DNA of 64,000 nucleotides, taken from assembly GCA_963922205.1 (NCBI GenBank), contig CAWUHX010000038.1:310001-374000 (forward strand). The letters run 5' to 3'. Both the position numbers and the translations under genes were made by a program. The DNA comes from Romanomermis culicivorax. Lineage: Eukaryota > Nematoda > Enoplea > Mermithida > Mermithidae. How positions within the stretch are numbered: the stretch's first letter is position 1; each line of letters starts with the position of its first letter. Below are positions 1 to 30,640 of the stretch, piece after piece. The notes below the pieces were generated by a model. It saw only the letters and a list, made by a program, of their open reading frames with translations. It made no database searches and was not told where the DNA came from.

Positions 1-426
1 AGCATTAGAGAGGCGTAATTAAGAAAGCATAAAAACCGTAGCAGGAAATGACGATTGGCGGAAGAAGATGGACAGAAGCTCGACCTCCCGCAGCGCCCAG
101 GGAGTGGCCAAAATCGCCGTATAAAAGAAGAAGCAAAGCGTGATTTATTCATTCTTATTCTTGTGGTTTTTCCGTTTTGACTTCCGCGCTCGCCCCGTCT
201 TTTTATACATTTGCAAGCGGCCGACTATTCGAAAGCAACTTAAACCGAGGCCCCCCGTCCCTATTTTAATTCGAAGCGCGTTTGTTGTCGACATCCAAGC
301 GACCGTCGATCCCCGTTGTTTATTGTAACCGTTCGCCCGCGCCCCGTCCCCTATTTGTCCCCGCCGTATCGACCGATTGGTTAATTGGTTAGAAGTAAAG
401 TACCTCACACAAATCTGGTCGTTACA
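1..426 (+). repeat. 5' LTR of element 1 (3' portion only)
   Basis: This is a direct repeat of 8408-8833. It ends in GTTACA, matching the ...TTACA end of the downstream copy. It contains a short GC-rich, CCCCG-rich stretch near 240-360. No TATA box can be assigned with confidence, although 'gtataaaag' at 119-127 is a candidate about 25-30 bp upstream of a plausible start site. Confidence 0.92.
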
Positions 427-450
427 TATTTTGGTGACCGTACCGTTACG
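427..450 (+). other. Candidate primer-binding site of element 1
   Basis: Directly after the LTR end, TATTT is followed by TGGTGACCGTACCG. A PBS normally begins with TGG (the complement of tRNA CCA) within a few bases of the LTR. The tRNA cannot be named by eye. Confidence 0.45.
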
Positions 451-669
451 TTAACCAGTGGAACTCCCTGCCCCCAGTTAGGTGTACTCTTATCCGGGCA
501 TTTAGAAGCATTAGATAATACCGTAGTAATCATTTCCTACAGTAAGACAGTATTCGTAGAAAGCAAACTGGAAATTCCCTCCAACGAGACATTAAGCGAT
601 ACATTTAAACAAATACAGCGTGAAGCAAAAATTGAAGCATTTAAGCAGAAATCCCATCCTAAACCAAGA

Positions 670-2346
670 ATGACCCACCAAACGCAAGATCATTTAGGAG
701 AAATCGTTAGAGAACAGATAAACGATTTGTTTTCAGAACATTTTCGTACCCTACGCACACAATTGAATCAGAATACAGTAAACCCTACCCTAATAGACGA
801 TTTAAGAACAGCAAACATTCGTAATAACATGGCAAACAATTTCTACGCGAAACCTACAGTATTCACGGGGGGCGTGACCCAACACTTTGGTGAATGGAAC
901 AAAAGATTAGAACAATTCATGGCACTCCAAGGCATGAAAGATACAGACGTACAGTTAAAGTTGGCATGTTTAGAAATTCATTTAGGAGGAGCCGCGTTAG
1001 CAAAATTCAGAAGTTTAGCAAATTCCGAAAACCCTCCCCACACATACGAGCAGTATAAAGTCGCACGACAGGCATTTTTCCCAAACAATAGAGATAATGA
1101 GCTACATCAGCAATTCTTACGCGAAAGAAAACAAAAGCGATCAGAAACAGTAACGGAATTCTTATTTGATCTAGAACATCTCGCAACCCTCGCCTACCCT
1201 AACTTTAACACAGACGCACGAGAAATGATTATAAAACCCCTCTTTGTAGAAGGCATGCAAAACGAAATCAGGGAAGCAATTAAGTATAGAAGGTTCGCAA
1301 CTCTGAAAGAAATGTCAGACGAAGCAGCTTACATTGAACAGCAAATTCTTAGAAATGAGTTAAAATCTGATGTCCTTCCCTTCATACCCCCAAAACCCGA
1401 ACCCATCTTTTCCCTCACCAAAAACACAGACCAACAGGATCTTTTGCATCAGTTAGAACAACAAGTAAAAGATTTACAGTTGCAGATCAAACAAAAACCC
1501 CAACCCCCACAACAAAGTAGCTACAACAATTTCAGTAACAACACTTACAGTAGGAATAATGCTTACAGGAACAATACCACCCCCAGGCAACCCACATGCT
1601 TCCAGTGTGGACAAATCGGACACGTAGCTCGTAATTGTAAATCAGTACGCACCTGAAAATCATGTGAAATCTGTTTCCGTAATAATCACAGTACACGTGA
1701 TTGTAAAAGTCCATGCATCCACTGCTCCCAAACAGGACATAGATCAGATAACTGCCCTTCAAAACCCTACTCCAATTTTCAATGTTTTATATGCAAGCAG
1801 AGAGGTCATACAAGCAGGTATTGCCCGAATCAGCAGAGTCGTAATATTCAAAATTGCATTGAGTACAGGCAACCCCAACCCCTCATGGACATTGACGACC
1901 CCGCATTTTACTCAAAATTACCCGCCATAACTAACAGCCCTCAGACTACTTTAGGAACTATCATGCCCAACACCCACCGCCGTAGTGACGAATACGTCCT
2001 TGATCTGGACGTACCCGATTGGTGCGCCATGTCACCACCCCCCACGCCTGAAGCCGCAAAAATCGAAAAATCGCCGCCCACCATCCCCGTAGGCTACAGG
2101 ATCCCCCGAAAGCAAGACACAACGCCGCCCACCGCCCCCGAAACCCCGTCGAAAACAGGCCGCAACTTGTTATCCCTTCTCCATGGCCTGACCCCCGAAC
2201 CCTACCAATTCCGCCCCCGCCAAACACTTCTACCGACCCCCATAAGTAAGCAAGTCCAAACCCCATCCCATAACTCAACTTCTAAAGTTTTACAGAACGT
2301 TCAGATTGCAAACCGGCCACCCCCCCAGCTCAAAATCGCAAAATGA
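670..2346 (+). CDS. gag: Gag of element 1 with in-frame TGA at 1654-1656
   Basis: This is the structural protein of the element. The first AUG in the open frame is at 670; the frame is open further upstream into the LTR but has no AUG there. A retrotransposon Gag capsid-like domain covers about 850-1350 (motifs FTGGVTQHFGEW, YEQYKVARQAFFP, LAYPNF). A Gln/Pro-rich linker and a CCHC knuckle follow at about 1594-1641 (CFQCGQIGHVARNC). An in-frame TGA comes next. The same frame then encodes three more CCHC knuckles (CEICFRNNHSTRDC, CIHCSQTGHRSDNC, CFICKQRGHTSRYC) and a Pro-rich tail with a YRIPRK motif, which ends at TGA 2344. Conserved knuckles after the TGA argue that the downstream part is, or recently was, translated. 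Alternatives are readthrough or a recent CGA-to-TGA mutation. Confidence 0.85.
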
Positions 2347-2430
2347 CAACACCAAAAACCGCCACGCCAAATCGAGCAGAGCGAAAAAACACAGTACCCC
2401 GCCGCCTCCACTAAAACACTACATTGGCCA

Positions 2431-4200
2431 TTGTATTGTATATTTTTATGTATAATAATCCCCACATCGTGTAGTGCCCAATTTCAGATGTGTGGAACTT
2501 CATTGAGCGGTCACTCAGTCAGCATACCAAAACTTGTATCATGCATGCCCCCTTCCACAGTAGACAAACCCGTACAAACATTCGGAAAAATCTATATCCC
2601 CTCCACTAAGCCCCACATTACAGACGCATACAAATGCAGTGTTCGCAAACGCAAAATTTGTACTAATACAGGATTTTTTGGATCAAAAGGTATTGTCTTC
2701 GACCAAACCGAAATGCAAAATCTAACCCCACATGTTTGTAAGGCAATCGTTATAGACAAAGAACACAACGGTCAAAAATTATACGAAACCCAACCAGGAT
2801 TTTGGTCAACAAATAACTCCCTAAGCGTAGAATACACATGGTGTTGTACAGACCATTGTACCTCGGTCACTAACGTCATCATAGAAATAGGACAAATAGC
2901 ATCTTGGAATGGAAAATCTATGACAGGTACATTAGGCGACTTAGGGTCATGCAAACCGACATCAGGTCATTGTGTCACAGCCGACGGATCCATTATCTGG
3001 AACGAAACAGCATTTGAAAACTTATGCCCCTTCGAATACAAAAATACACATCCCATAAAACTCACGCCAACCCACATGATAATAGAAGAGCTACAAGGTG
3101 CATTTTGGGTTAAAAACACACTCTTTTCAAACCCCAATTGCCCAGAAATCCAAGACAGCATTCTAACCGAACAAGGCATTATCGTACAATTAGACAAAAG
3201 CACCCCACATCATAATGCATTTTTAACCCCAAAAACCAACGAAACTCATACTACACTATACGATTTTGATGATTTTGAACCCATCAATGCAAAACTAAAC
3301 TATCTAGCAGACAAAATACAGGAATTCGAAATTCAAAATTTCAAAAATGTATGGAATGAATTATGCAGACAGGCACAGCGTCACCTTGATCTCGTATGGC
3401 AAATTTTACGTCTTGATGCAACCCTTGGAGCGCGTGCATTCCTACAGCGAACGGACATCATAGCAGAATTCACAGGAGAAGCCCTCACAGTCTGGCCCTG
3501 CAAGCAGGTAAACGCATCCAAAGTCTTCTACAACCACAAAATCAACCAAACATGCTACAAACTCTTACCCATTCTAGTAGGAACCGAACTCATGTTTTCA
3601 AATCCAGGAGGCAACAATTTGACCCCTTTCTCACAAACCGTTGACTGCCATCACATGCATGTAGCCCTTTACAAACAGAATAATACATGGGTCAGTGAAA
3701 CAGGATCCCCGCATGTCACAAATTTACCTTTAGAAATCGTCTGGAACCAAAATTTCTCCCTTTTTCATTTTAATACACCCGCCATTTTTCATGATCAACT
3801 TGCAACTATTTCAACCAACTTACTCTTTTTGAAACAATACATTTACAAAACTCACACACTCGAAAACATTGTCAAAAAACTCGTCAATTACACCGCCCAA
3901 ATGTCTCTCAATTCCGATACAGTTTACAACATGATCTCAGGCACTGGCCAAGCACTCGGAAATACACTCTCTGGCGCCGGTCAAGGCATAGAACATGTAA
4001 TAACCGGTACCACCCAAAGTCTCACGGACGGATTAAACAATTTACTCAAAGGACCCCTGCAAATCATTATCAATCTCGCCGTTATTACTGTAGTTATTGC
4101 AGGCGTCTTTTATTTGTTTCTCGTTCTTCGAAAATATTTCCCCTCTCCAAAGCATCATGCCACAAACAAACATGCATACGAAATACCATCAAACAACAGA
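2431..4200 (+). other. env: Env-like glycoprotein domain of element 1
   Basis: The domain has about 590 residues. It has an N-terminal hydrophobic stretch ending near a likely signal cleavage site (PTSCSA) and a paired-Cys block WCCTDHC. It also has a block AEFTGEALTVWPC followed by a Cys and LPI, repeated N-glycosylation sites, a Gly/Ser/Thr-rich juxtamembrane stretch, then a ~25-residue membrane anchor followed by basic residues. The same architecture and many of the same Cys are present at 28385-30245. The TGEAL...C...C...LP block is reminiscent of chuvirus-like (class III) glycoproteins; that assignment is inference and untested. No internal stop is visible. Confidence 0.8.
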
Positions 4201-7200
4201 CATTTACATGAGACCATTCCCCCATCATTCGGCCATGCTCTCTTAGAATTAGCTAATCGTCGTGGGGCACAAACGCAGCAGAAATACGTCCTTGTCGATA
4301 TTGATACCCCCCGAACCCCTGCAATCGAACTCATTAATCAAATTCACCAATCTGCATCAAATAAGCCACCCCAAAACGTACCTGAGAAACATACCCCTCA
4401 TATTCCAATCACACTTAACGGCAAATTAATGACAAAAGGCATGATTGACACTGGTGCAGTTTACTCACTCATTGATTCCCGAATCGCTCAAATCCTACAG
4501 TTAGACATGAAACCCCCGCTAGTCCAAGCAAAAGCAGCAAATAATCTCCCGATTCACTTTGTAGGAACCACTTTTGTCACAGTGACAGCCCAAACAATCC
4601 AGGAAACAATCATGGTCCATGTCCAAAAAGATTGCACAGCAGACATCCTTCTAGGCAAAAACTTTCTCAGTCGATTTTCGGAATACACTATCAACAATCA
4701 AAAATCACAGGTCAAATTTGGCAATGTTATACTACCTTGTGATGGCCTAGAATATAGCCCTCTTTCAACTCGTGGTAGAACTTATTTGGATGAGAAATTA
4801 GAATTACCACCCCGTACAGTAACCGAATTTACTGTCCCCTTGCCCAAATCGTACTTACAGGTCAAACAGCTTGAATTCACCCCGAAACCCAAAGAGAATC
4901 CCAAAGTCCATTTTGCAGCTTGTATCTCGGAAAATCAAAACAGTCGCATACGCATATCGGTCTTAAACACGCAAGAAACAGCTCAAACTCTTTACCCTGG
5001 AACATGCATTGGTACAGTCTCCTGTTACATCCCGAAACAAAATACTCCCGCTAACCTAACCCCTTCCACGCAGAACCAGCCAAACCGTTTTGATACATTC
5101 ACATGGTTAAAGGAAAACATCAATTTAACCTCCAGTGACCTCACAGAAGCAGAAAAAACACAACTCCTACGCGCCCTATCGAAGTACCCTACATTATATG
5201 CTAAATCCAAAATGGATGTAGGTAGAACCACCCTCGTTTCACATACAATTGACACCAATGGCTCCCAACCCGTACGTAGACAACTTTATCGGACTTCCCC
5301 AAAAGAAAAGCAAATCATACAAGCAGAAGTTGAGCAACTCGCAGCAGCAGGTGTCATAAGCCAAAGCAATTCCCCATGGTGTACCAACACAGTTTTAGTC
5401 CCCAAAAAAGATGGAGGCCATCGTTTATGCATTGATTTTAGAGGCCTCAACAAAGTCACAAAAAAAGATACCTACCCATTGCCCCGTATCGACGAAATTC
5501 TAGACACCTTACGTGGAATGAAATATTTTACGTCCCTTGACCAATCCAATGCATACTATTCCATTCCCATAGCACAAGCAGACAGAGAAAAAACGGCCTT
5601 TAATTGCTCAGCTGGCCAGTATCAATTCAATTACCTCCCCTTTGGACTCACCAATGCCCCAGCCACCTTCCAAAGGTTAATGGATGTTATTCTTTCGGGT
5701 CTGCAATGGAACACATGCCTTGTGTATCTCGACGATGTTTTGGTATTCGCAGACTCCCATGCCCAAATGCTGGAACGTTTAGACACTATTCTTGCCCGAT
5801 TCTCACAAGCAGGCCTTAAGCTAAACATACAAAAATGCAAATTCTGCCAGCCCCAAGTCCAATACTTAGGCCACGTCATTTCTCAGCAAGGCATTTCACC
5901 AGATCCCCATAAGGTACAGGCCATTTATGACATACCCACACCCAAAAGCTCAAAAGAAGTTAAGTCATTCCTTGGCCTACCCTCATATTATCGCAGATTC
6001 ATCCCAAATTGCTCCCAAGTTTCAAGCCCACTCACATCACTACTCAAAAAGAATTCCGAATTTTCCTGGGGCCCTGAACAGCAAAATGCATTCACTAAGC
6101 TAAAAGAATTACTCATCCATGCCCCAATACTACAGCATCCCGATTTCACAAAACCGTTTATTCTGCAAACTGATGCCTCAAAACTCGGAATCGGCGCCAT
6201 TCTCAGTCAGCTAGATAGTAAAGGTCAGGATCGCCCCATTGCTTTTGGAAGCCGCACATTGAAACCCGCAGAACGCAACTACCCGATCACTGAGCTGGAA
6301 ACCCTTGCAGTAGTCGAATTTGTCAAGTATTTCCGCCCTTATCTTTTCCAGCAACATGTTATTGTACACACTGACCACACAGCAGTTCAGGCAGTCTTAC
6401 AAAAGGAAAACCCGTCCCCTCGCATTGCCCGTTGGGGATTAGCCCTCTCCGGTATTCAACTCGACATTCGACCTAAGAAAGGCACTGCTAACCGCAACGC
6501 AGATGCAGTTTCCCGATTCCCCTCACAGACAGCAAAACAATCCTTTGATATTGAGCAATTAGAAACCCGCCCCGAAATATCAACTATCAATTCAGTTTTG
6601 GAAGCCGAAGCAACTGAACAAGAGGAGCAACAGAAAAATTTTGCCGAACTCCAACGCACTGATCCAACTGTCAAAAGCATATTAGCAAAAATCGCCCAAA
6701 AACACCCCCTCACTCTGATCAAATTCGCAGTGCATCAAAACATTCTCTTCCGTATAGTCGACAAACAGGCAAAACTATACATTCCCAAGTCCCAAGTCCA
6801 GCATCTCATCGCCTCACATCATGACAGCAAATTCACAGGTCATTTTGCGGCCCGGAAAACTTTACACTTGCTCAGACAGAAATATTTTTGGCCCCAAATG
6901 AGCCGTGATATCAAACGTTACTGCAAAACTTGCCACCCATGCCAGACACAGAAAGCTCTTAGACACAAAGTGCATGCAAACTTGGTACCAATTCAGCGGA
7001 CTGGCCCCTTTGATAGAGTCGGTGTTGATTGCATGGGACCGTTACCCCTCACTGAAGACGGCAACCGATTCATTGTCGTTTTCATCGATTATTTTACAAA
7101 GTATGTAGAGGCATTCCCGACCCCTGACATCACTGCAGCTACTATTGCCAAGCTATTCGTAACCAAAATTGTTTGTCATCATGGGTCCCCAAAAATCATC

Positions 7201-7899
7201 CATTGTGACCGTGGCACCGATTTCGTATCCGATCTTTTCTCACGGATCACCAGTTTATGCAATACTCAGAAAATTCATACCACCCCATACCATCCCATTG
7301 CCAATGGGGAAGTTGAGCGTTGCAACCAAACCTTAGCCACCCGTATCCGCATGTACATCAATTCAAATCACACTGATTGGGATACTTATCTCCCATATGC
7401 TGTTTTTTCGATCAATATTCATAAAAATGATAGCACATCATACCCCCCATTTGAATTACTCCACGGTAGGCAAGCTAATCTGCCGTCAGATGCAGCCTTA
7501 AACTTTTTCCCCACGTCCTACATGGTTGATTTAGATGATTACGCCCTTCATGTAAAATCGCATTTCACAGAAGCACTCTCAACCGTGCAGAAAAGTTTGC
7601 AAAAAGCCCAAGCCCACTATACCCATCAGTATAACAAGCATGCTCAGAACATACATTACAAGGCAGGTGATCTTATTCTCTACAAAAATCATTCGTGTAA
7701 ACAAGGGCTGACTCCCAAATTTCTCCCTCGCCAGAACGGGCCCTATACAGTTACAAATTTCATGTACCCCAACGTTACACTTAAACACCCCCATAAGAAT
7801 ATTACATTTACGGTGCATGTAAACGAGACAACCCCTTTCTACCCTCAAACAGCAACTATCGAATCTACCCCCACCCCTCCCCAACCTGGAAAGCCTTGA
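2431..7899 (+). CDS. pol: Env-Pol fusion polyprotein: glycoprotein, protease, RT, RNase H, integrase
   Basis: This is one uninterrupted 1822-codon frame (2431-7899). A hydrophobic signal-like start is followed by a Cys-rich ectodomain with several N-x-S/T sites, and a transmembrane segment near residues 542-567. A retropepsin follows (DTGA near residue 673, with later ILLGKNFLSRF). RT has YLDD near residue 1098, and RNase H has TDAS and TDHT. Integrase has an HHCC finger (about 6820-6960) and catalytic blocks DCMG, CDRGTD and NGEVER. The frame continues upstream to the gag stop TGA at 2344, and no in-frame AUG precedes the signal-like segment. It could therefore be made by readthrough from gag, by a non-AUG start (TTG at 2431) or from a spliced RNA. 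A fused membrane glycoprotein would place the enzymes on the cytosolic side of the anchor. Confidence 0.9.
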   Translation: MYCIFLCIIIPTSCSAQFQMCGTSLSGHSVSIPKLVSCMPPSTVDKPVQTFGKIYIPSTKPHITDAYKCSVRKRKICTNTGFFGSKGIVFDQTEMQNLTPHVCKAIVIDKEHNGQKLYETQPGFWSTNNSLSVEYTWCCTDHCTSVTNVIIEIGQIASWNGKSMTGTLGDLGSCKPTSGHCVTADGSIIWNETAFENLCPFEYKNTHPIKLTPTHMIIEELQGAFWVKNTLFSNPNCPEIQDSILTEQGIIVQLDKSTPHHNAFLTPKTNETHTTLYDFDDFEPINAKLNYLADKIQEFEIQNFKNVWNELCRQAQRHLDLVWQILRLDATLGARAFLQRTDIIAEFTGEALTVWPCKQVNASKVFYNHKINQTCYKLLPILVGTELMFSNPGGNNLTPFSQTVDCHHMHVALYKQNNTWVSETGSPHVTNLPLEIVWNQNFSLFHFNTPAIFHDQLATISTNLLFLKQYIYKTHTLENIVKKLVNYTAQMSLNSDTVYNMISGTGQALGNTLSGAGQGIEHVITGTTQSLTDGLNNLLKGPLQIIINLAVITVVIAGVFYLFLVLRKYFPSPKHHATNKHAYEIPSNNRHLHETIPPSFGHALLELANRRGAQTQQKYVLVDIDTPRTPAIELINQIHQSASNKPPQNVPEKHTPHIPITLNGKLMTKGMIDTGAVYSLIDSRIAQILQLDMKPPLVQAKAANNLPIHFVGTTFVTVTAQTIQETIMVHVQKDCTADILLGKNFLSRFSEYTINNQKSQVKFGNVILPCDGLEYSPLSTRGRTYLDEKLELPPRTVTEFTVPLPKSYLQVKQLEFTPKPKENPKVHFAACISENQNSRIRISVLNTQETAQTLYPGTCIGTVSCYIPKQNTPANLTPSTQNQPNRFDTFTWLKENINLTSSDLTEAEKTQLLRALSKYPTLYAKSKMDVGRTTLVSHTIDTNGSQPVRRQLYRTSPKEKQIIQAEVEQLAAAGVISQSNSPWCTNTVLVPKKDGGHRLCIDFRGLNKVTKKDTYPLPRIDEILDTLRGMKYFTSLDQSNAYYSIPIAQADREKTAFNCSAGQYQFNYLPFGLTNAPATFQRLMDVILSGLQWNTCLVYLDDVLVFADSHAQMLERLDTILARFSQAGLKLNIQKCKFCQPQVQYLGHVISQQGISPDPHKVQAIYDIPTPKSSKEVKSFLGLPSYYRRFIPNCSQVSSPLTSLLKKNSEFSWGPEQQNAFTKLKELLIHAPILQHPDFTKPFILQTDASKLGIGAILSQLDSKGQDRPIAFGSRTLKPAERNYPITELETLAVVEFVKYFRPYLFQQHVIVHTDHTAVQAVLQKENPSPRIARWGLALSGIQLDIRPKKGTANRNADAVSRFPSQTAKQSFDIEQLETRPEISTINSVLEAEATEQEEQQKNFAELQRTDPTVKSILAKIAQKHPLTLIKFAVHQNILFRIVDKQAKLYIPKSQVQHLIASHHDSKFTGHFAARKTLHLLRQKYFWPQMSRDIKRYCKTCHPCQTQKALRHKVHANLVPIQRTGPFDRVGVDCMGPLPLTEDGNRFIVVFIDYFTKYVEAFPTPDITAATIAKLFVTKIVCHHGSPKIIHCDRGTDFVSDLFSRITSLCNTQKIHTTPYHPIANGEVERCNQTLATRIRMYINSNHTDWDTYLPYAVFSINIHKNDSTSYPPFELLHGRQANLPSDAALNFFPTSYMVDLDDYALHVKSHFTEALSTVQKSLQKAQAHYTHQYNKHAQNIHYKAGDLILYKNHSCKQGLTPKFLPRQNGPYTVTNFMYPNVTLKHPHKNITFTVHVNETTPFYPQTATIESTPTPPQPGKP
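4420..7899 (+). other. Pol core of element 1 (PR-RT-RH-IN)
   Basis: Catalytic residues of all four enzymes appear intact: DTG in the protease (4447-4455), YLDD in RT near 5723, RNase H Asp/Glu blocks at 6171-6400, and integrase D, D and E at about 7026, 7207 and 7312. The order is that of Ty3/gypsy elements. I see no chromodomain after integrase. A short tail follows the integrase C-terminal GPYTV-like SH3 block. Confidence 0.92.
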
Positions 7900-7930
7900 A
7901 CGAGGACGTTCAACTCCGGAAGGAGGGAAA
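7900..7930 (+). other. ACGAGGACG box and polypurine tract of element 1
   Basis: ACGAGGACG lies at 7900-7908 and the purine run GGAAGGAGGGAAA at 7918-7930 abuts the 3' LTR, as expected for the plus-strand primer. The same ACGAGGACG box occurs twice upstream of the 3' LTR of element 2. Confidence 0.75.
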
Positions 7931-8833
7931 TGTAACGTACCTGCTAAAGCAGTACTGTAAATATGTAGCATACTGTATGTAATAGACATTTATTAGATAT
8001 TATTTTATTTTTCACATTTTATCGTCTCAAGGATGTCTGGGATTCACACCCAAACATTCCTACAAAATTACGTGAAGTACTTTATTTTGATCCGTTCACA
8101 CCCCGGTAGCCCAATTAAGATGCCCCAATTAATTTGCACAAACGGCAGCTGTTCCCCTAGAACCTACACTAAACTACACATTCCACAGCTACCGTAATCC
8201 CCCGTAAAAATCGTAAACAACACCTGCACACAGTAAAATATGTAGAAGCCCCGCCGTACAGTAGTCTCAAGTGTAACAGTAGCGGCAGCCCCACAAAACG
8301 TGTGTATACAGAGAAACCGATACAGGAAGCATGCACAGAAGCACGAAGGTGTGGCCAAGCCCACCGTGGAAAGCAAGCAAAGCACAGAAAGCATACAGTA
8401 CCAGAAAAGCATTAGAGAGGCGTAATTAAGAAAGCATAAAAACCGTAGCAGGAAACGACGATTGGCGGAAGAAGATGGACAGAAGCTCGACCTCCCGCAG
8501 CGCCCAGGGAGTGGCCAAAATCGCCGTATAAAAGAAGAAGCAAAGCGTGATTTATTCATTCTTATTCTTGTGGTTTTTCCGTTTTGACTTCAGTGCTCGC
8601 CCCGTCTTTTTATACATTTGCAAGCGGCCGACTATTCGAAAGCAACTTAAACCGAGGCCCCCCGTCCGTATTTTAATTCGAAGCGCGTTTGTTGTCGACG
8701 TTCAAGCGACCGTCAATCCCCGTTGTTTATTGTAACCGTTCGCCCGCGCCCCGTCCCCTATTTGTCCCCGCCGTATCGACCGATTGGTTAATTGGTTAGA
8801 AGTAAAGTACCTCACACAAATCTGGTCGTTACA
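7931..8833 (+). repeat. 3' LTR of element 1 (903 bp, TG...CA)
   Basis: It starts TGTAACGTACC and ends CGTTACA. Its last 426 bp duplicate 1-426. A diverged relative is the solo LTR at 18381-19271. Confidence 0.93.
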
Positions 8834-9086: not shown

Positions 9087-12000
9087 TTAGAGAAAATTCA
9101 TAAATACTTTCTGGAGCAGATTTCCTTCCGCTTTTCTAGTTTTGTATATGAAAATTTTTCCTAGTGCTATAATCCAGTTAATTGCTATGTTTTTGGTTGT
9201 TTTTTCATCTGTCTTGTGACCTAATATAATTGTCATTCTATCAATTTTTATATTTTGTTCTAACTTCGTTTTTATTATGGATTCTAACTCTTTCCAGAAA
9301 ATTTTCACTAGTTGGCATTCCCAGAATGTGTGAATCGTATCATCTATTCGGCTACATTGATAACAAGCACTTGAAAATTTAATTTAGTATTTGACTAATA
9401 GGTGTGAGGTAATTATTGTATTGTGTAAAATTTTATAGTTTGTTTCTTTGTGTTTACTACTTATTTTAATTTGATAGAGCTTTTCCCAAGAATTACAAAA
9501 GGAATCGTAGTTAATATTTAGCCTTGATTGCCATTTTTCTTGCTCCTTAGGGATATCTAATTTTGTCTTTTTCAAGTGTTTCTTCAAATTTTTGATTTGT
9601 TGAATCTCAAAATTTTGTGGTTCAAATTCAGTTTCTGTTTTCGGATGACGATGCATCTTGACAAGAGTTTTCCACTCATGCGGGATTGCATGTATCACCT
9701 AACAATAATCAAACCATAGTATTCCACAATTTTCATTTCTGAGCTCTTCCCAGCTTTTCAGCGTCCAATCATTTCTGAACCAGTGAAAAATAAAATTGAA
9801 TTTTGTATCAGTCAGGGCATTCAAGAATATTGCCTTTTTTCCACTTAGGATGTAAGTATTGTTATTTATTCTCTGCGCCATGACTTGTGGTTATTTTACA
9901 AATGTTATTTGAGGGGATTGCTTGGATCTGTTCTTTTATTTCTGTATAAAATGGGATGAGTTTCACCCCTAGTGTTTTCTGTGAGAAATTATCGTTAAAT
10001 AATTTGGTTAATCCTCCTCTCCCTTGTAGTGGTTGAAGTGCCACTTCATTCCATTTTCCTGGTTCGATCAATCCGAGTAACGATTTTGCTTTTAACGTTT
10101 TAATCATAATTTCAATGTCCGGAGTTTTTATCCCTCCTTTGCAATAATCCTGAATTAAGACGTTTTTTCTGATTTTTGGTTTATGGTCGTTCCACAAGAA
10201 GTGTGTTAGCATGTCATTTAAGTTTTTTACTGTTTTTTGTTCGGTTGGAAGAATTATTAGGCTGTACACGATTTTAAGAGTTATGATATAATTCCATACG
10301 GCCACTTTCCCGTACATGGTCAGGTTTCTAGATTGCCATAATTTGCATAGTTGTCTACATTTCTCAACTTTGTTCCTGATATTCTCATTATACATTTCTT
10401 CTTTATTGTATGAAAAATTTATTCCAAGAATTTTTATCGACTTCACTATTTCACTCCCATTTACCTTGCCGTCTTTGTTTTTATTTTGTCCAAGTCCTAG
10501 TATTTGGGTTCTGTTAACATTTATTTTAAGGCCAGAAAGTGTTGAGAATTCCTGAATAACACTTAAGGCATGTTTCTAATCCTCTTTATCCTTAGCTAGA
10601 ATAGTTGTATCATCAGCATACACGCAGACTTTGTGTGTCATAGCTCCAATCTTTAGTCCCTGATAACTTTCACAACTTCTAAGCATGTGTGCCATGCCAT
10701 TAATTCCATTGAACAAGTAAATAGATATGGAGATATTGGGCAACCTTGCCTGACTCCTGTTTGGATTTCAAAACGTTTTGTACAGAAACCAGCATTTCGA
10801 ACTACTGCTTCAGATTTGTCATGGAGAGTTTTGATCCAAGTGGTAAAACTTTCTCCAAAGTTGAAAATTTTTAATGGATTAATCATAAAATCTCGGTCAA
10901 AAGCTTTTTCTATATCTAATGAAATTAAGAGTCCCGATTCCTCTTTACTCTCGTAATGTTCAATTATATCCAACAGGTATCGTATGCTTTCTCCGATATA
11001 GCTTCCAGGTACAAAGCCTTTCTGGTCTTCATTTATTATACTCTTCAGGTTAGTTTTTAGTCGTTCTGCTAAGGCTTTTGCTAATATTTTGTTATCTACA
11101 TTCATAAGGGATATGGGTCTCCAGTTCTGTAATTTATTGGGGTCCTTATTTGGCTTGGGAATCAGCGTTATGATACTTCTCCTTTGTGAATCACTGAGTC
11201 GATTATTCTGTAGTGAAAAATTGAAGCTTTTAACCAACGGGTTTTCTATTGTGTCCCAGTACGTCTTGTAGAATTCTATTGTAAGAGCGTCATCGCCCGG
11301 AGATTTGTTATTTTTCATATTTTTTAATGCATTTTTGTATTCTTGTACTATGAGGTCTTTTTCTAGGATACTTTTCTGTTCCTCTGATATTTTTGGTAAG
11401 TTGCAAAAGTTTTCTTTTTTTAAAGAGTTTCTGATGATGGATTTTTTTCCATATAGAGAGTTATAGTATTTATAAATTTCTTCTAAAATATCTGCTGGTT
11501 TGTTTACTTCAATACCTGATTATGATTTTAGTTGTATTATCTTGTTCCTATTGTAATTTCTCTTCTCCATATTAAGAAAATATTTGTTTGGTTTTTCACC
11601 ATATAAATGCCATCTTGTTTTTGCTCTTTCCATGATAAATTTTGTTTTTTCCTGTGTTAGATTTTTTAGTTGTTCGTTTACCTCTGTATACCTGTCCGAA
11701 TTTTCTTTTTGACTGTTGTTATCTAAGTAAGCCTCCAAATCCTGTAATCCCTTTGTAGGTCTTTTTCTCTATTTCTTTTAGATTTTGCTAGTTCTTTGGA
11801 ATATTTTATTGCATGACTTCGTATTTTGTATTTTACATATTCCCATGCTTTTACTGGATCCAGAGTGCTAATTTCACACTCATTATTTGTTTCCTCTATC
11901 AGCTTTTTTATACTTTTACTATAAAATTCGTCTTTGAGTAAGGAATTATTGAAGTGCCAGAAGCCTGGGCCTGCTTTTCTATAGAGTTTGCCGGATATGC

Positions 12001-20794: not shown

Positions 20795-22195
20795 TGTCAC
20801 GTGCCGCTCAATTTCCCCAATGTCACGTGATCCAAATCATGTCAACACTTTATTTTTTCATGTTTTGTTTATTACTTATTCATGTTTTCGTTTATTTTAT
20901 TTCTACACATGCATTTTGTGTTCGTTTTTATATTTTCCATGCATTTCTATGTTTCGTTTTGTTGTATTTTTATTTCTTTATGCACGCGGGCTACAGTAGG
21001 CCCTTTAGCCAAAAACTTCCACCAGCCATGCTCCACGAGCACATGGCTATTTTTGGTGCATTCCGTGCACCTCTTATCACCAAAAATTAGCATCGTTTTT
21101 GTTACGCAAAAACGACTAGCTAAGAAGTTTAGCTAAAGACGTTCATATGCTTAGCATAGGCACTGCAGTCGGCCTCAGTGCTAAACGCATGTGAACGAAA
21201 AAAATGTCTATGTGCTCATAGGCATCTTCTGCATCGCGTCTAGCTGCAGAAGTTAGCTTGGACACCGAGAAACTCCGCCCAAGCTGCAGCTGTAGCCAAA
21301 TATGTCCTTAAAAGGACATGCTTCTTTAGTTTTTCGCTCATTCCTGGGTTTACCCCTGCGTCCGATTTTGTTGTCAGCGTCCGCCGCCTGTTGCCTAATT
21401 TGAATAAATTGGAACAATCATCTTCACTGCATCCGCCGCCTTATATTAAATAAATTTGCATAAATTTATATCCCTCTACTGCGTCCGCCGCTTACTCGTT
21501 TACAGTACGCGCTGCCCATCAGTGCCAGGTGTCCGACCACTCCGGTTAGCCGAGAATCAATCGCGAGTCGCCTCCCGATCGCCTATACCCGTCGCCCAGG
21601 ACTCGTGTGGATCGCATCCCCGCCCCGTGCCAGAAGACCGAAAGCATCCAGGGACTTGCCGCCCGTTTTCGTCGAATCACTTGAGAAACAGGACTAGGTG
21701 AGTCTTCTCAGGGGATTATTGTTATTTGTGGGGTATTTGTTGGGGAACCCTTCTTAAGTCGGTTTCCCAGGTTTTCCCCAGATAAGTAGGGCCTTCATCT
21801 CTCAGGTTCCGGCTGAAAAGGGGGCTGTCTGGTTCATAATCGGGCCCCACAAATCAGGTCATTTTACGGGTGACCCTGTCCCCACTCTCACTGAGCAGGA
21901 CTCGGGGATTGTCACACCTAGCCTGGCGGCGTTGTCCAATACCCTACAGTAAGACCCCAGGACAACACCAGAGAGTACCAGCTATGGGTCTCCCTATAGC
22001 CACCATTCGCCAGGTTAGGCCCCCAACACCAACCAGGGGAGCCTGGGGAAAATGCCAGTATCCATCAGAAGTCACAGCCTATTACTCACTGTAATAGGAT
22101 CAATCTGATATGGTTCGCCATCAATGTGATGTCTAAAACACGGTACTACCTGATGTGATACCCAAACCTCCCCAGCTCCCCCGCTAAACGTGACA
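20795..22195 (+). repeat. 5' LTR of element 2
   Basis: A direct repeat of 35456-36852. It is rich in short hairpins: CGTTTTTG/CAAAAACG near 21090, and the near-palindrome CATGTCCTTAAAAGGACATG, intact in the other LTR at 35959-35978 and with one change here near 21302-21321. Related solo LTRs lie at 59793-61202 and 58487-61333. Confidence 0.95.
21696..21703 (+). promoter_or_regulatory. Candidate splice donor in LTR
   Basis: AG|GTGAGT, an excellent donor consensus, is present here and in the 3' LTR near 36355. Possible acceptors with pyrimidine tracts are at 25356 (ttctgttctcttag) before gag and at 28351 (ctgcccctcag) before env. Use is inferred. Confidence 0.4.
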
Positions 22196-22215
22196 TGGCC
22201 AGGCTGGAAAATCGA
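22196..22215 (+). other. Candidate primer-binding site of element 2
   Basis: TGGCCAGGCTGG begins at the base after the LTR end, as expected for a tRNA primer site. The tRNA is not identified. Confidence 0.5.
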
Positions 22216-22530
22216 CCTTAAGTCTGGCACTCGCCCTTAAGTGCAAAAACACTTCACCCTTGGGTCGGAACTACCCCCAGGTCGGGTCAATTCCCATTTT
22301 TAAGTCGGACAATCCCCCTTAAAATTGGGTACTAGCCATCCAATAAGTCGGAACCCCCCCAAATTCGGGTTTACTGCCTAATGGGTTGGGAATGCCCCTT
22401 ATTTCGGATTACCGCTACTGTAGGTCAGAAATTTTTCCCCTGAAATCGAGTGTTATTACTGTAGGTCGGGACTTTGTCCCTTAAAATCGAGTTTAATTAC
22501 TGTAAGACGAAAATCGCCCTTAGAGTGATC
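22205..22530 (+). repeat. Degenerate ~40-bp tandem array in element 2 leader
   Basis: About eight units share a 'taagtcgga...ccccttaaaatcggg' theme, with starts near 22211, 22261, 22310, 22351, 22381, 22420, 22461 and 22500. Each unit alternates a GTCGG and a CCCCTTA motif. It is non-coding and follows the primer-binding site. Confidence 0.65.
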
Positions 22531-23181
22531 TAAATGTGATCTATATGTGTAAATAATTATCTCATGCGAGTGTATCGCCCCTATGAGTAATAAATTCCCC
22601 CTGAGTCGAGTTATCTGTCCTCAGAGTGGAGTTATTTGTCCCCTCGAGTCAAATTTCCCTCAGAGTCGGGCCCCAGAGTTGAGTATATCGAGTATTCTGT
22701 ATTTCTCCTCTGAGTAATCCTGTACCTTCTACATGCTTAATCTGTGTTGTAAACTCCCTCATTTTTTTCTCTTTTCTTTCTTTTGCCTCTCTCCTTTTGG
22801 GTGGTATACTGTAACCCTCAGGGTGGGTGCCATTACAGTACCCCTGTATCCATTCCCGTACTGTAACTACAGTATACCCATACGCGGGTACTGGTATCAC
22901 AGCCGTAGGGGTTGACGGCCTCTACTGACTGTTGGTGGTCCATGACCCCATGATACCGTACACCCTCCACCTATGATTCTGGACGTCATACGTGGCTGCT
23001 ATCTGTTAATTGTGTACAGTATTTTTATATTTCACCGGAAACTGTCGGAGTTGCTCACTTCTCCGGCCCCAAAATTTTACACCTACTGTTTACACATTTA
23101 ACACACGTATGCCCAAATCTCGTATTTTCTGCTTTTCTGTTATTTTCTTCCTCCACTTTTCTTCTTCAGTCATCTGAGTGG

Positions 23182-23182
23182 T

Positions 23183-23213
<31 letters not shown>

Positions 23214-23218
23214 AAAAA
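23182..23218 (+). repeat. Poly(A) tract in leader
   Basis: Near-uninterrupted A run (A18, G, A16) inside the leader of element 2. It is not at a LINE end and may be a slippage product. Confidence 0.85.
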
Positions 23219-23363
23219 TTCTGTTTTTTTTCTTACGCCACCGCTAGAGTATGACACCCTTATGTAGGCCTCCCTCTTTTTCATTTCTTCTTACTGTAAA
23301 ATCTGTTTTCTTCTCTTTTCGGGTTGTTGCATCTGGACCATAGACTTTACGGGTCATGCTCTT

Positions 23364-24065
23364 TGACGTCAGCAACAACAATGTTACGTGTTGTTGTTGT
23401 GCGTGGTTCAGCCTCACAGACTCAACCACTGACGTCTGCAACAGCCGCTTCACTTGCTGTTGCTTTAAGGGGTGGGTAGCCCTCCGGGTTCTACTCCTGA
23501 TGTCAGCAACGACAACATCACGTGTTGTTGTTTTGGGTTGATACTCCTGCAGTACTGACTCCTGACGTCTGCAACAGTTGGAGCTCACGTTGTTGCAGCA
23601 GGTTTGGCTGGTCTCCTGCACCCCATCTATGACGTCAGCAATGGTGACGCAACGTGTCACTATTCAAAGATGTGCAGGTCTTACGGGTGCCACATCTGAC
23701 GTCTGCAACAACTGTATCTCATGTTATTGATGTAAGGTATCGGACCCGCGGTTCCACCTTCTGAGGTCAGCAACGGCCACATGAAGTGTTACTGTATACA
23801 GATATTTGGCTTCAGGGCCCTATTGCAGACCTCGTAATGACAATGTATCATGTTCTCGCAGCAGAAATTGAGGTTACATGATCCTATTTCTGACGTCTGC
23901 AACGGCAACATTACGTGTTACTGCAGGGGTCTGCTGGCCTTAGGCACTTACCCCTGGCGTCTGCAACTGCGACATGATACTTGAATACTCTTCTCCCAGG
24001 CACCTGCAGTCAGCACCAAGGTCATGTGTTGGTCCATACCCCCTACCTTTTGACGTCAGCAGCAG
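23364..24065 (+). repeat. ~66-bp array of TGACGTCA/TGACGTCT boxes
   Basis: Boxes start near 23364, 23430, 23498, 23563, 23630, 23697, 23762, 23826 (weak), 23891, 23955 and 24051, so spacing is 64-68 bp over most of the array. Early units alternate TGACGTCAGC and TGACGTCTGC, suggesting a ~132-bp dimer. Each box is followed by an inverted repeat such as CAACAACA...TGTTGTTG around ACGTG. One more box lies at 24391. TGACGTCA is the CRE/ATF core, so an enhancer is one option and an RNA stem-loop series is another. Confidence 0.8.
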
Positions 24066-25796
24066 GTTACTGTCGGTCCTTTGAGTATTCCACTTGAGTC
24101 GTAGGTGGTTGCTGGCACATGATCCTATCACCTACTGCTCTTGTCAAAGGGTTGGTGTGTGTTTGGGACTGATGCCTGGGAAACATCAGTCCACACACAT
24201 ACACCACCTGAGATGCTCTTTAGTCCGTGTACTGATCAGGTTGTCCGCCCGGGTAGCGGCACTGTTGATCAGCATGTGGCTGCCTTTAAGCTTTAACTGC
24301 AGGTTTGAACGAGTTACACTCAGCCTCAGCTGGGTCGGTTGTCTGAACTCGTGCAGGCAGCAGGCATTTGCAGTCGGTACTGCCTGTGTCTGACGTCTGC
24401 AAGGGTTCGGCAATCTTCTTGTAAATTTCTTATCTAAATTCACTCACTCTCTTTCATCTCATCGAGCTGTCATACATAGATCTTCTTTAGTGTCCCCGCC
24501 GTAGTGGTTCCCAAGGGACCGCGGCACAGCCTCCGGTTGGGCCTAGAGTGTATAGGACCCCCTGTCATATTTCCATTCACTTGAACGCCTTCGTTAACTG
24601 GCTTAACGATGTCCGCGCTAGAGTTGCCAGTCCGCCTCAGCGAAGGTATTGAGTACGCCTCAATGCATAACTGGGTTCGCCTCAGTTATTTACACTCAAT
24701 AATTCACCCAGGGACACCTTGTACCCGTGATCCCTTAGATGTTTGCGGGTGCGCCCTCAAAACATCCAGAGATATTCATTTTAACTGACTGAGTGTGTCA
24801 GAATAGCACCTTTGGTACCCGTGCTCCTCCTCTCTTTCACTGTGTGACCTGCGAGCCTCATTTCATCTCAGTGATCGGCAACCCGGCCACCAGTCTATAT
24901 AATACTCCTGGAGAGTGTCCGTTCTGTTCGGAATGCGGGCTCCCATTTCGGACACGGCTGTAAGTTACTTGCGAATGTGGTCCAACACGGAACCTCTGTA
25001 TAGTCCATCACACTGTACAGAGATCGCAATCGCTCCTGGCGAGTGAGGCCCGTTGCGTAACTGCGCGACCCCTTTGCATAACTGGGTTTGTAAATTAGTT
25101 TTGTCCCTATTTATTGCTCCCTTTTAAGTTCACTTTCAGTTGTCCCCATCCTTTTCACTTTATGCCACTTTATGCGCTACTCCTGGTGAGTAGGATCTTG
25201 CCGGCTACGAGTCCGCCTCGCCCTAAGGTTTGTAAACTAGTACAACGGTCGAACCTCCAGGAAAAATCCCTCCTGAGCGGGTTCATCCGTCATCTTATTT
25301 CTCGGCAGGAAAACCGCCTTTTCTCTCCTCTTATACCTAATCTTCTGTTCTCTTAGGCTATTCTAATTGCCGGGTCCAGGCCCCAACTCTACATTTTTTG
25401 GTCGGGATCGATTCCCCCATATCTCAAACCATGCCTCTGTCCATCACGGGCGACCAGATAAATTCCCTTCTGGGTCACCCTGATGTACTCTGATCTTGCA
25501 TCTTATAATCCTATTCCATTCTAGCTCCCTTTTCGTGGTCGCTAGTCTTAAGCTAAATCAAGTTTACATCACAAACGCCGTCGCGCATGCGTTTTCCGAA
25601 TTCACGCGCTCTTTCGCCGCGAATTCAAAAGTAGTACTCACTTTCACTTTACACAATAGAGACACCCCGTCGTTCCTGCCGTCTTAGTACCCAGCCTGTA
25701 CAGACCAGTGAGCCGCTCTCTATTCAATTTGACTTAATTGCTTCACGGGCAAGGACGTCTGTTCTAACCACCTTACGGGAAAACGAACCCTCGGAC
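24066..25796 (+). other. Rest of element 2 leader, no gene
   Basis: GC-moderate, non-coding sequence with short repeats (cgcctcag...gcctcaa near 24630-24690). A pyrimidine-rich tract ends in tcttag at 25356, the candidate acceptor. I see no reading frame with coding character before gag. Confidence 0.5.
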
Positions 25797-28338
25797 ATGA
25801 AGTCGGAAGCTGATCTCCCTTCACAGATCGAGAACAAGGTCCAAGCAGCATTTGAGAATGCTCTTGGACCCCTCAACCAAAAGTTAGAGGCCATGAATGG
25901 TCGGAGGCACCCTCCTGTGTCCAGCTTTATGGCCCCTCCCACCTTCTCCGGTGCTTTTGGTGAGTCTATCACTGATTTTATGTCGCATCTTACTCGTTTC
26001 TTTACACTCCAGGGTGTAAGCGAAACGGATCATGCGTATAAAATCGCCTTTCTGGAGTCATGCCTCACGGGTCCTGCTCTTGCCTCCTACCGGGACTTTA
26101 GCAGCAGCACTCCAATACCTACCCGCTACGAAGAGTTTACGGCTTTTCTACGGAGAGATTTTCCGGTAGGGCGCGACTCTGATCTGCATCAGCAGCTGAT
26201 CCAAGACCGACTGCAGAAGCCGACAGAGTCCGCGATAGTCTACCTTGAGCACCTCAAGAGACTATCCAGGGTAGCGTATCCCGATCTCGCGATGGATGTC
26301 CGAGATTCAATCATCAAACCTATCTTTCTGCGAGGATTGAAACCGGTCCTCCGAGATAGTATCAAGTTTAGGGAGTTTACGACTCTTGAAGAGACACTCA
26401 AGGCAGCCTGTTACGCAGAATCCCAAATCTTTCGGGACGAGATCCGGTACACTGCTCCATCTAACGCCGTTTTCTCTTCAGAACCTAAACACGCCAGATA
26501 TAATCCCCATATGCCTAACAGAAGCGCAAACGGTCGTCAGAGCAACGCTCCAACGTCGTCATCCTCCGCTGATGAGGTTCACCGCTTGAAACAGGAAATG
26601 GCCAGGCTCACGGCCCACGTAGCGAAGCTCACGGCCCAGCAACGTGCACCAGCGCCAATCCAACAGACGCCGCCTTCACAGCCGTCGACACCAAACCAGT
26701 CCGCCGGGCGACGCTCGTCGGGAGCACACCTTCAAACGTGCTCCTTCCATGGACTGTGTACACATAGCGACGCCGACTGCCGGGCCCAGCGTCCCACCGG
26801 TGCCGCTCCCGGTAACAACACCACTAACGGTGGTCGCTGTTATTTTTGCCGTACACCTGCCCACCCCACGGACCGATGTGATGGCCATGCCCTCATTGTC
26901 GTCAAGTGCGAGTGCACCGATCAACTGCCTGTCCGCAGCGCAATCCGGCAAACACGGGTGAGAATGACTACCAAAATACTGGTTATTCTTCCCAGGGGAC
27001 AAATGTGTATCATCAGAGAAGTGGTTATCACCCTCCTAACGGGATGGGAAACCAATATCGGCAGCCCATACGTCGCAACAACGCCGTTGGGGCTACCGAT
27101 GGCCCTCCTCATCCAGATCCTCTTGACCTGGATGATGAGGCGCTTGCTGTACACCTGACAGATTCTTCACAACAGTGTTATCCTGTCTGCGTAATCAGTA
27201 TTGGATTTTCAGTGGTCCAAGCAGCCCAGGTACCCGTACCGATAAATGTATCGGACATACCGCTGCCACCACCACCACCAAGGTATGCGATGCCGCTCAC
27301 TCTGGACCCCTTGACGACACCGCAGTTTGTTGGCCACGCTAACATCCTCGCATCGTATCGCATCCCCAAAACCACGACTGCCAAGCCAGCTCCAGCCGCA
27401 AACACGACGTCTTCGGCGCCACCGGCCCGCATCGTCCCTCCAGGACCACCGCCTTCGATCCCCACGGATTCCGCTACGGAAGTCCTCGACCAGGTCGAGC
27501 CCATGAATTTGTCAGGTATACTACCTTCTTCTTCAGGTGATCCTAGAGTAGGAACCAGAAATCTATCTCAGTCCACGACTCTATCGATTTCTTGTTCACA
27601 GCGCCATCGCCCGTCCAAGACGCGATGTTGGCCATCTGGTCAGTTGACCTGGCCAAGAAATACCCGCATTTGCCGTGGACTCTGCTCAACGAGCCATCGC
27701 ATGTCGAAGTGCTCACGGCCGCCGACGTGGTGCTTGCGGCGCCTGTTTCAATGCGACTCTTACGACCCGTCGTCGCCCGACGGGCACTCGAGTTCATTGC
27801 CAATGGGACTATCACAATCTCGCCCGTCGAGAAGTTCTTATTGGATGGGGAGCCATCCTCACCTTCGGTCGATGCCGTCCGCCGAGCAGTCGAACAGGCC
27901 AGTCGGATCCTCCTGCCTGCTGTCGCCGCTACATCACCGACAGCAGCGCCACCTGTTGCCGCGACATCGCCAACAAAAATGGACATTACTGCTTCCTCGC
28001 CCCCAGCCAAGGAACCCGCAAATGATCCTACACCGCCGGCAACAGCCCAAAATACATCCTCGGCAACAGCCCAAGCCAAATCGCTGGCGCCAGCCCAAGA
28101 GACATCTCCGACCGCTGCGACCAAGTCGCCCGTCGTCGAACACATGGCCGTCGACGAGAACTTACGTCCGGGTAACGAAGATGTCAGCATCATTGAGGAA
28201 TCTCCGTTCCCAACGGCAGTAGCCCCATGGTCGCCAAAAGTCGGTATCCTCCGGGAAATCCACCCGTGTGGTGGATTGGTCCTCGATTTCCCCCGCCAGG
28301 AACCCATCTCGTCTGACAGCGACGAAGAAGAAATCTGA
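25797..28338 (+). pseudogene. gag: Gag region of element 2, frames 0, +2 and +1
   Basis: The ATG at 25797 opens a Gag with the capsid-like domain (FMAPPTFSGAFGESI, FLRRDFPVGRDSDLHQQL, IIKPIFLRGLKP). It parallels element 1 Gag block by block. Zinc knuckles follow: CSFHGLCTHSDADC, CYFCRTPAHPTDRC and a third damaged one (CPHCRQ...HRSTAC) reached only after a frame change near 26900. Frame 2 runs on as a Pro-rich part with LDLDDEAL and SYRIPK, matching MDIDD and YRIPRK of element 1. Near 27550-27600 the frame changes again to a 240-codon stretch ending in DSDEEEI and TGA 28336. Two frameshifts suggest decay; programmed shifting is less likely but possible. Confidence 0.8.
27592..28338 (+). other. 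Element 2-specific Gag C-terminal extension
   Basis: Its first ~100 residues ([16 protein letters not shown] to [18 protein letters not shown]) look folded and have no counterpart in element 1. They are followed by an Ala/Pro/Thr-rich repeat-like linker and an acidic end. I do not recognise the domain. Confidence 0.5.
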
Positions 28339-28384
28339 CACTGCCCCTCAGGCCAGATTTGTGAAATTGAGTGAACACTTACAA

Positions 28385-30245
28385 ATGACGTTTGTACAGT
28401 TGTTTTTGATAATAAAATTGACCTTGGTAACATCACTGTTTCTAGGGGTGAGTTTGTCAGCACCCGCGGCTCAGTATCAATTTTGCGGTCTCTCAAGAAG
28501 CGGACATCCACTTGAGTTACCCCAGCGTGTAGAGTGTAAACCACCGCAATCTTCATGGAGCCCGCGGCGCATGAATGTTACGGTGTATGTCCCTAGTTCA
28601 GACCCGATTACAACCTGGAACAGCGTGGAAATGCACATTGCGCTCCCGCAAAGTCTGCACCAACACTGGTTTCTTCGGCTCTAGGGGCATCACTGCAGAC
28701 GTCATTACCACTCAGCACTTAGCGCCTGCGGCATGCACGCTAGCACATCGCACTAAGATGTTTGGTTCACAAAAACTTGTCGGCATTCGCCCTGGCTTTT
28801 ATAGCACAAACCAAACATTGGAAGTGATGTACGAATGGTGCTGCATTGACGTCTGCAAGACAGTGACTAACCTCTTCATCGAGGAGGGACAAGTCGCTTC
28901 GTGGGATGGCACTACGGCCCTAAGCACCTTAGGCGATGTAGGTGGATGCAGTCCCACTGCAGGCCAGTGCACTACTCTAGACGGGGTCATTGTCTGGCCT
29001 GCACAAAACTTCACGGCGCGGTGTCATTATCACCCCAAGGGAAATTACACTGCGTCCATGTCAGGGAACCACGTCATCATCGATGATCTACAGGTTGCCC
29101 TCAAGATCCCGGGAAACTCCCGTGTCTTCCAACTGTGCCCAGTACTACGTTCCACCACAGTCCGGACGGATCAGGGTCTTCTCCTTCGCATCCACGGGAG
29201 ATACAATTTGACCCAAAACTTGTTCAGAATGGCAAAGGACACCCGTCCCGATCCTGTCAATGCCAAACTGAACTATCTGGCTCAGCAGATCAAGGAGTCG
29301 GAAATTAACGGTTTCCGGTTCACGTGGCTTGAGCTCTGCTCTCACGCTCAAGGCTATCTTGATCTGACTTGGCAGTTGCTTCGCTTGGACCCTACCTTGG
29401 GTGCCCGGGCATTCCTCCAGAGGAATGACCTGACGGCGGAATTCACAGGCGACGCACTGACAATATGGCCGTGTCAGAAGGTCAACGCCACCTACGTTTA
29501 CCACTCGTACCCGGTGGGAAACGTTTGCTACAAGTACTTACCTGTACAGGTCGGCGGTACCATCTACTTTGCCACCCCCGGTGGTCCAGATCTCATTAAA
29601 TCTAGCCCAATTGTGCCGTGTCATCACCACTTTACAGGGATTTTCCGAAATCGCTCGGGCTGGTTTACTGAGTCTGGCGCGGTCCATGTGAGCCACATCC
29701 CACTGGAACTCTTCTGGAAGCAGCGTTTCGACATCACTCACTTTGAGGCACCGGCGCTCTTCCATGACCAGTTGGCGATGACCCCTTCAAACTTTGCCTT
29801 CTTTAAACACTACGTTTACAAGACTGAGCAAATTGAAGCGGTACTCAACCGGCTGGTAAACTTTACCGCTGGTCTATCCCTGCAACCAGACGCCATTTAC
29901 CAGGCCTTTGCATGGGTAGGAACCGACATCAAGGCCTCTCTGGAAGGTGTCTGTTTGGCAGCAAACCATGTTATTACGGGTCAACAACACACCCTCGCCC
30001 AGGGCTTCCATGCTGTCCTGAGCGGGCCGGTCCAGTTGATCTTTAACATCCTAATTACCCTGACAGTGCTGATCGGTGTCGGATACCTTGCCTATCTTGG
30101 TGTATCTTATTATTTCAGCTACTGTCTGCGGAGCAAACAGGTCAGGTTTGTTAGCCGTTTTTCCCCGTTGGGTCTTTACCGCAAAGTCCAACGCTGGATC
30201 GGATTTCACTACGTGCAAAACGATGTGCCCTCCCAGCTTGACTGA
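28385..30245 (+). pseudogene. env: Env-like glycoprotein of element 2, one frameshift
   Basis: The ATG at 28385 starts a strong signal peptide (hydrophobic run [18 protein letters not shown]). The ectodomain keeps the Cys pattern of element 1, including WCC-x-D-x-C, GDVGGC, the FTGDALTIWPC block and a later Cys-Tyr-Lys-x-Leu-Pro. Several N-x-S/T sites are present. The anchor is near 30025-30110 (LIFNILITLTVLIGVGYLAY). The frame changes near 28610-28632, so this copy cannot make a complete protein without a shift. It ends at TGA 30243, after which the same frame continues into pol. The gene sits between gag and pol, the same unusual position as in element 1. Family assignment is open; a chuvirus-like class III relation is possible by motif only. 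Confidence 0.85.
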
Positions 30246-30263
30246 ATCACACCGTGTTTCGTC

Positions 30264-30640
30264 GTGCTGCTGGATACCAAGGAAACTCCTGCTTTCCTTG
30301 ACAGGGGTTGCCCCCACACTATCATTAGCCAATGTCTTCATAAGGCCTTGGCTAAAGAAAGTCCGAAGGCGGTCATAGCGTTCCAGCAACATGACGACTT
30401 TAACCCATTGATGAGCATCAATGGTAAAGCCGTTCATACCATCCTTTCGGGACCATATGAAAACATGTTGCCCGGAAACCGCCAGCCGAACACACGGATC
30501 GATATACATCTCCATGTGTGCAAGACTGCGTCTCCCTTCTGGGCACCTGTTGACCTCATCCTCGGACTGGACTTCTTAGAACAGTTCAAGAACATTATGT
30601 TTGACTACCAACGTAATGTTTGTCGGCTGGACGCAGTAGA
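30264..30640 (+). other. Extra retropepsin-like domain with DRG
   Basis: FLDRG followed by ~80 residues and VDLILGLDFL has the layout of an aspartic retropepsin, but Thr of DTG is Arg. A separate intact protease lies 330 residues downstream. Element 1 lacks this domain. Confidence 0.6.

Follow-up and report, generated by a model that had tools for sequence, protein, structure and literature searches.

As far as we know, retroviruses and env-bearing long terminal repeat (LTR) elements carry env at their 3′ end, a position that permits its splicing. In the errantiviruses, the env-bearing insect endogenous retroviruses (ERVs) of the Metaviridae, env is located 3′ of pol and is expressed by splicing. 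The stretch discussed here, 64,000 nucleotides (nt) of the nematode Romanomermis culicivorax (contig CAWUHX010000038.1, positions 310,001 to 374,000; hereafter the window), contains two LTR elements, named elements 1 and 2, which resemble the errantiviruses in joining a Ty3/gypsy-type gag and pol with a fusion glycoprotein, but which carry env 5′ of pol and in the pol frame, opposite to the location in errantiviruses. The order gag-env-pol is found in both of these divergent elements, and in element 1 env and pol form an unbroken frame with one transmembrane segment (TM) before the protease. The env of errantiviruses is reported as the third open reading frame, of the baculovirus F type (PMC12992720).

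Anakin, a mosquito BEL/Pao element with a chuvirus glycoprotein (PMC7642597), is likewise an LTR element that captured a chuvirus-type glycoprotein; its pol, however, is of the BEL/Pao type, whereas the pol described here matches Ty3 best among solved structures (no Pao-named Pfam family occurs among the matches of element 1, the two being set apart by Pfam names and PDB matches only). An arthropod-centred survey lists many Gypsy fragments beside such glycoproteins in insects and, in its accessible part, no clear Gypsy capture (PMC10084718). Dingle, from Dimorphilus, pairs a Ty3/gypsy pol with a gB-like env, as the elements of R. culicivorax appear to do, but differs in that its env protein is placed downstream of the integrase in the methods of that paper (PMC7854359). 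The lokiretroviruses, whose Env likewise resembles the fusion glycoproteins of Mononegavirales, are retrovirus-like and have a dual RNase H (PMC9040795); this second RNase H of lokiretroviruses and Retroviridae (tether plus RNase H) is unmatched here, as Pfam recognizes one RNase H region. Troyka, or Kuafuortervirus, has CG...CG ends and a 3 bp target site duplication (TSD; PMC12440569), with IADD, VADD or LADD in its reverse transcriptase (RT; PMC11673190), unlike the TG...CA ends and 4 bp TSD of element 2 and the YLDD of element 1. No LTR element with the order gag-env-pol was described among the titles and abstract openings listed in literature searches, a coverage that excluded most subscription papers and preprints, and no relatives were confirmed in scans of viral contigs and prokaryote genomes.

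Element 1 is a Ty3/gypsy-type LTR element (positions 1 to 8833 of the window, the 5′ LTR being truncated by the window edge) in which the Pfam matches give the gene order gag-env-pol, with env upstream of pol. Its LTRs have TG/CA termini, and the two copies are 98.4% identical across the 426 nt of the 5′ copy that fall within the window. Because the 3′ LTR follows the pol stop after a mere 31 nt, element 1 has no env 3′ of pol. The domain order of pol is protease (PR), RT, RNase H (RH) and integrase (IN), as in Ty3/gypsy (Metaviridae). The best PDB match of the RT is Ty3 4ol8 (2.4e-68, with a profile of both elements) and that of the RH-IN part is Ty3 7q5b (3.2e-57, with element 1), an affinity that means the closest among solved structures rather than a position in a tree. 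The integrase contains an HHCC stretch (6817-6945), GVDCMGP (7021), CDRGTDF (7204), NGEVERCN (7303) and a GPY stretch (7726); we take the protease DTG, the RT YLDD, and the HHCC and three acidic motifs of the integrase (7021, 7204 and 7303) to have the roles assigned to them. A search with the NCBIfam profiles gave no useful match, and tRNA and Rfam scans of the window gave zero matches.

An initial annotation, made from the letters of the sequence, had reported an 1822-codon frame at 2431-7899 carrying a Cys-rich, sequon-bearing ectodomain, a TM anchor and pol, and this frame is indeed present with all of these parts, as Pfam matches, motifs and hydropathy agree. Its start needs correction: the TTG at 2431 reflects merely a listing convention, and the frame is really open from 2347. 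Between 400 and 7900, frame 1 of element 1 has three stops, all TGA (1654, 2344 and 7897), compared with 124 and 140 stops for frames 2 and 3 within about 400-8000. Its longest stretch free of stops spans 1850 codons, whereas none of 300 mononucleotide shuffles of this region exceeded 236. The gag gene upstream shares this frame with env-pol, a point absent from the initial annotation, and is broken only by the TGAs at 1654 and 2344. It opens with ATG 670, the first ATG in any frame past the 5′ LTR, and its Pfam matches are zf-CCHC (3.4e-6) and, under the cut-off, Ty3_capsid (0.0092).

The identification of env relies on the Pfam family Monjiviricetes_fusion, which matches element 1 at 5.1e-19 (68.1 bits) and element 2 at 1.3e-13 (50.3 bits), against a curated cut-off of 27, over a part of the profile only (296-468 in element 1 and 311-448 in element 2, of 653 positions). 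A single strongly hydrophobic segment is located between the ectodomain and pol in element 1. The signal peptide of element 1 was called by eye and by positional alignment with that of element 2; it is short and falls under the 19-residue hydropathy threshold, which the signal peptide of element 2 passes. Sequence searches of env against PDB gave no match with the single sequence and, with the pair of sequences, only a thiaminase at E 0.89, while the AlphaFold2 model from the two-sequence input (mean pLDDT 32.6) was too poor for a fold search. At matching places, both ectodomains also contain a basic stretch, RKRK in element 1 and RSRK in element 2, followed by the conserved [IV]CTNTGFFGS (together 2644-2682 in element 1); the basic site could be a proprotein cleavage site.

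Element 2 repeats the order gag, env, pol, with most of env and pol in frame 3, and is bounded by LTRs with TG/CA ends and a 4 bp TSD, TTAC, within the 4-6 bp norm of Ty3/gypsy. Its proteins are far diverged from those of element 1, the identities by tblastn being 37.9% over 182 amino acids (aa) for the capsid, 42.7% over 508 for env, 48.0% over 540 for PR-RT and 48.3% over 669 for RH-IN. The divergence at codon positions 1, 2 and 3 is.444,.331 and.687 for env,.485,.309 and.706 for PR,.395,.256 and.673 for RT, and.382,.277 and.708 for RH-IN, and in gag, too, substitutions are commonest at third positions. The excess at third positions in env and pol indicates that both have been selected as proteins. 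Furthermore, env (43%) and pol (48%) are similarly diverged, as expected with an old gag-env-pol order. As the order is common to two far-diverged elements, it has most likely been inherited over a long time and would be the property of a lineage. The sample consists of two elements of one genome, within 64 kb, which leaves room for the explanation that env came to lie beside pol through an assembly or recombination artefact. This is very improbable, since the same order occurs in two elements 38-48% identical in protein, each within its own LTR pair, and element 2 has a TSD as well. The interpretation given in the initial annotation is partly supported: the position of env upstream of pol and fused to it holds up, the order recurs in a divergent second element, and a membrane-tethered Pol would follow from the topology provided that Env-Pol is one chain.

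How the env-pol frame is entered is suggested by its 5′ end. In element 1, no in-frame ATG is present at 2347-2487, and the first one (2488) lies 10 nt beyond the end of the signal peptide; an Env with its signal peptide therefore has no AUG start of its own, and the frame must be entered from gag or via splicing. For the latter, a splice donor situated in the leader or the early part of gag would supply the AUG, and joining it to an acceptor immediately upstream of the signal peptide would remove gag, so that Pol would still be tethered to Env, independently of Gag translation. The missing AUG ahead of the element 1 signal peptide is compatible with this scheme, and env of insect errantiviruses is spliced, its start apparently coming from within gag or from an exon that precedes it (PMC12992720). 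However, pyrimidine counts over 2347-2500 revealed no good acceptor ahead of the signal peptide: of six AG sites, the four between 2347 and the start of the signal peptide show no pyrimidine tract (the 20 nt before them contain 5, 9, 9 and 10 pyrimidines, with at most one T), whereas the better ones, 2473 and 2486 (12 pyrimidines each), fall inside or behind it. In addition, the C-terminal region of gag is in the same frame as the N-terminus of env, namely frame 1 for element 1 and frame 2 for element 2, an agreement that splicing would not need. The survey of AG sites disfavours splicing into env, and we regard this route as unlikely.

The reading that we favor, with moderate confidence, is that these elements represent a Ty3/gypsy-type lineage whose Gag and Pol flank a class III-like fusion glycoprotein, and in which Env-Pol would be one chain entered from the gag frame. 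We infer that Env, protease, RT, RNase H and integrase would be made as this single chain; entry would occur by reading past the stops, or the product would be one Gag-Env-Pol chain and the stops seen here would be damage. The signal peptide would thread the ectodomain into the endoplasmic reticulum (ER), and the TM would halt the transfer. Because the TM precedes pol, the protease, RT, RNase H and integrase would remain cytosolic, on the same side of the membrane as Gag, provided that Env-Pol is one chain. The element's own protease would then free Pol by cutting after the TM, and the membrane protein would have brought Pol to the budding site in a fixed ratio to Env.

Several points weigh against this reading. 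In element 1, TGA 2344 parts gag from env. In element 2, TAG 28220 precedes env, the signal peptide is provided with a Met (28385), and the env TM is followed by TGA 30243 before pol is reached, leaving no open fused frame. Moreover, the folding of the 101 nt past the stops at 1654, 2344, 28220 and 30243 is no stronger than that of shuffled sequences (z of -1.02, -1.15, -0.21 and 0.14, respectively), which offers no readthrough stimulator, and equimolar amounts of Env and Pol would be unusual. The stops in the two copies may be read through, bypassed, or a product of decay.

The same features of element 2, with TGA 30243 located 142 nt past the TM, would fit Env and Pol being separate proteins, so that the fusion in element 1 would be a variant or the loss of an original env stop, and element 2 would keep the ancestral three-gene layout. 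The initial annotation had pointed to a stop with independent starts in another copy as an argument against the fusion, and the stop exists, whereas a separate pol start is not evident: after TGA 30243 the first in-frame ATG is 30411, inside a protease-like stretch and 117 nt past the start of its motif (30294). If the proteins were separate, no evident start would be available for Pol in element 2 or for Env in element 1. Besides, element 2 is decayed, with frame changes near 26880 in gag and near 28600 in env and TAG 34350 inside the integrase, and the three-gene explanation is in our view rather improbable.

A further possibility is suggested by the polyproteins of flaviviruses and alphaviruses, in which one chain comprises the capsid, an internal signal peptide and a membrane glycoprotein and is cleaved on either side of the membrane. 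We take these viruses to be unrelated to the elements described here, and the likeness to be one of layout. We propose tentatively, and with some doubt, that Gag-Env-Pol might be a single membrane-threaded polyprotein of this kind, and that enzyme packaging would depend on Env rather than on Gag-Pol. The internal signal peptide would anchor Gag at the membrane, the Env ectodomain would be luminal and Pol would be cytosolic behind the TM, with the element's protease cleaving on both sides. The features on which these readings build are collected in Table 1.

Table 1. Features of elements 1 and 2, with positions in the window
Feature	Positions	Strand	Remarks
Element 1
5′ LTR, 3′ part	1-426	+	Ends CGTTACA; start beyond the window
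Probable primer-binding site, TGGTGACCGTACCG	432-445	+	Putative; TGG-starting stretch, 5 nt past the LTR
gag: capsid and first CCHC knuckle (1597-1638)	670-1656	+	In-frame TGA at 1654
gag frame continued: three further CCHC knuckles (1663-1824), Pro-rich region	1657-2346	+	TGA 2344
Linker and signal peptide (2419-2478), without ATG	2347-2478	+	Signal peptide by eye
Env ectodomain	2479-4053	+	525 aa; 16 Cys, 8 sequons; RKRK 2644; Monjiviricetes_fusion match
Transmembrane anchor	4054-4128	+	Hydropathy peak 2.64 over 4039-4140
Linker, TM to protease domain match, without stop	4129-4404	+	
Aspartyl protease	4405-4674	+	gag-asp_proteas 2.2e-8; DTG 4447; ILLGKNFL 4645-4668
Reverse transcriptase	5398-5880	+	RVT_1 4.2e-39; YLDD 5725
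RNase H	6067-6516	+	Pfam 6067-6450, extra motif 6490-6516; RT_RNaseH_2 6.5e-39, RT_RNaseH 1.7e-37
Integrase	6781-7899	+	Integrase_H2C2 1.3e-21, rve 2.3e-8; stop TGA 7897
Polypurine tract	7918-7930	+	Abuts 3′ LTR
3′ LTR	7931-8833	+	TGTAACG...CGTTACA
Element 2
LTR element, whole	20795-36852	+	LTRs 20795-22195 and 35456-36852, 97.4% identical; TSD TTAC
gag	25635-27158	+	Ty3_capsid 4.4e-7
gag continuation, frame 2: knuckle, Pro-rich	26882-28222	+	TAG 28220
env N-terminus, frame 2	28385-28615	+	Signal peptide with own Met
env, frame 3	28575-30245	+	Monjiviricetes_fusion; TM 30027-30101; TGA 30243
pol, in the frame of env	30246-34940	+	DRG 30300, protease DTG 31296, RT, RNase H, integrase; TAG 34350

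The protease-like stretch of element 2 (30294-30587, in the region 30246-30671) lies upstream of the true protease and has DRG in place of DTG, together with LILGLDFLEQF. It has no Pfam match, its predicted fold (pLDDT 35.7) was too poor for a fold search, and in BLASTP against the two proteases (single comparisons) it aligned over the C-terminal 32-48 residues only, with E values of 4e-4 and 2e-4; it is possibly a tandem inactive copy of the protease. Between the 5′ LTR and gag of element 2 there are 3.4 kb (22196-25634), which include an A run at 23183 and seven imperfect 42-nt repeat units at 23363-23931, whose spacings are multiples of about 66 nt.

Other LTR-related sequences occur elsewhere in the window. 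Copies of the element 2 LTR are present on the minus strand within 59338-61200, with 85.6% identity over 61200-59793 and 69.3% over 59749-59338, and a tblastn search with pieces of element 1 found no internal region there. A stretch at 18587-18742 matches part of the element 1 LTR at 76.8% and is perhaps an old solo LTR fragment. An RT fragment on the minus strand (10653-11318, RVT_1 5.9e-22) lies apart from both elements.

If the reading favored here is correct, an old lineage of LTR elements has env placed after gag and before pol, sharing the frame of pol, and would break the rule that env is located at the 3′ end. It would also mean that a Ty3/gypsy element captured a fusogen of the chuvirus/bornavirus type, an event of which the accessible text of PMC10084718 reports no clear case. 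Finally, it would imply that there is another way of setting the Gag:Env:Pol ratio and of loading the enzymes into particles.

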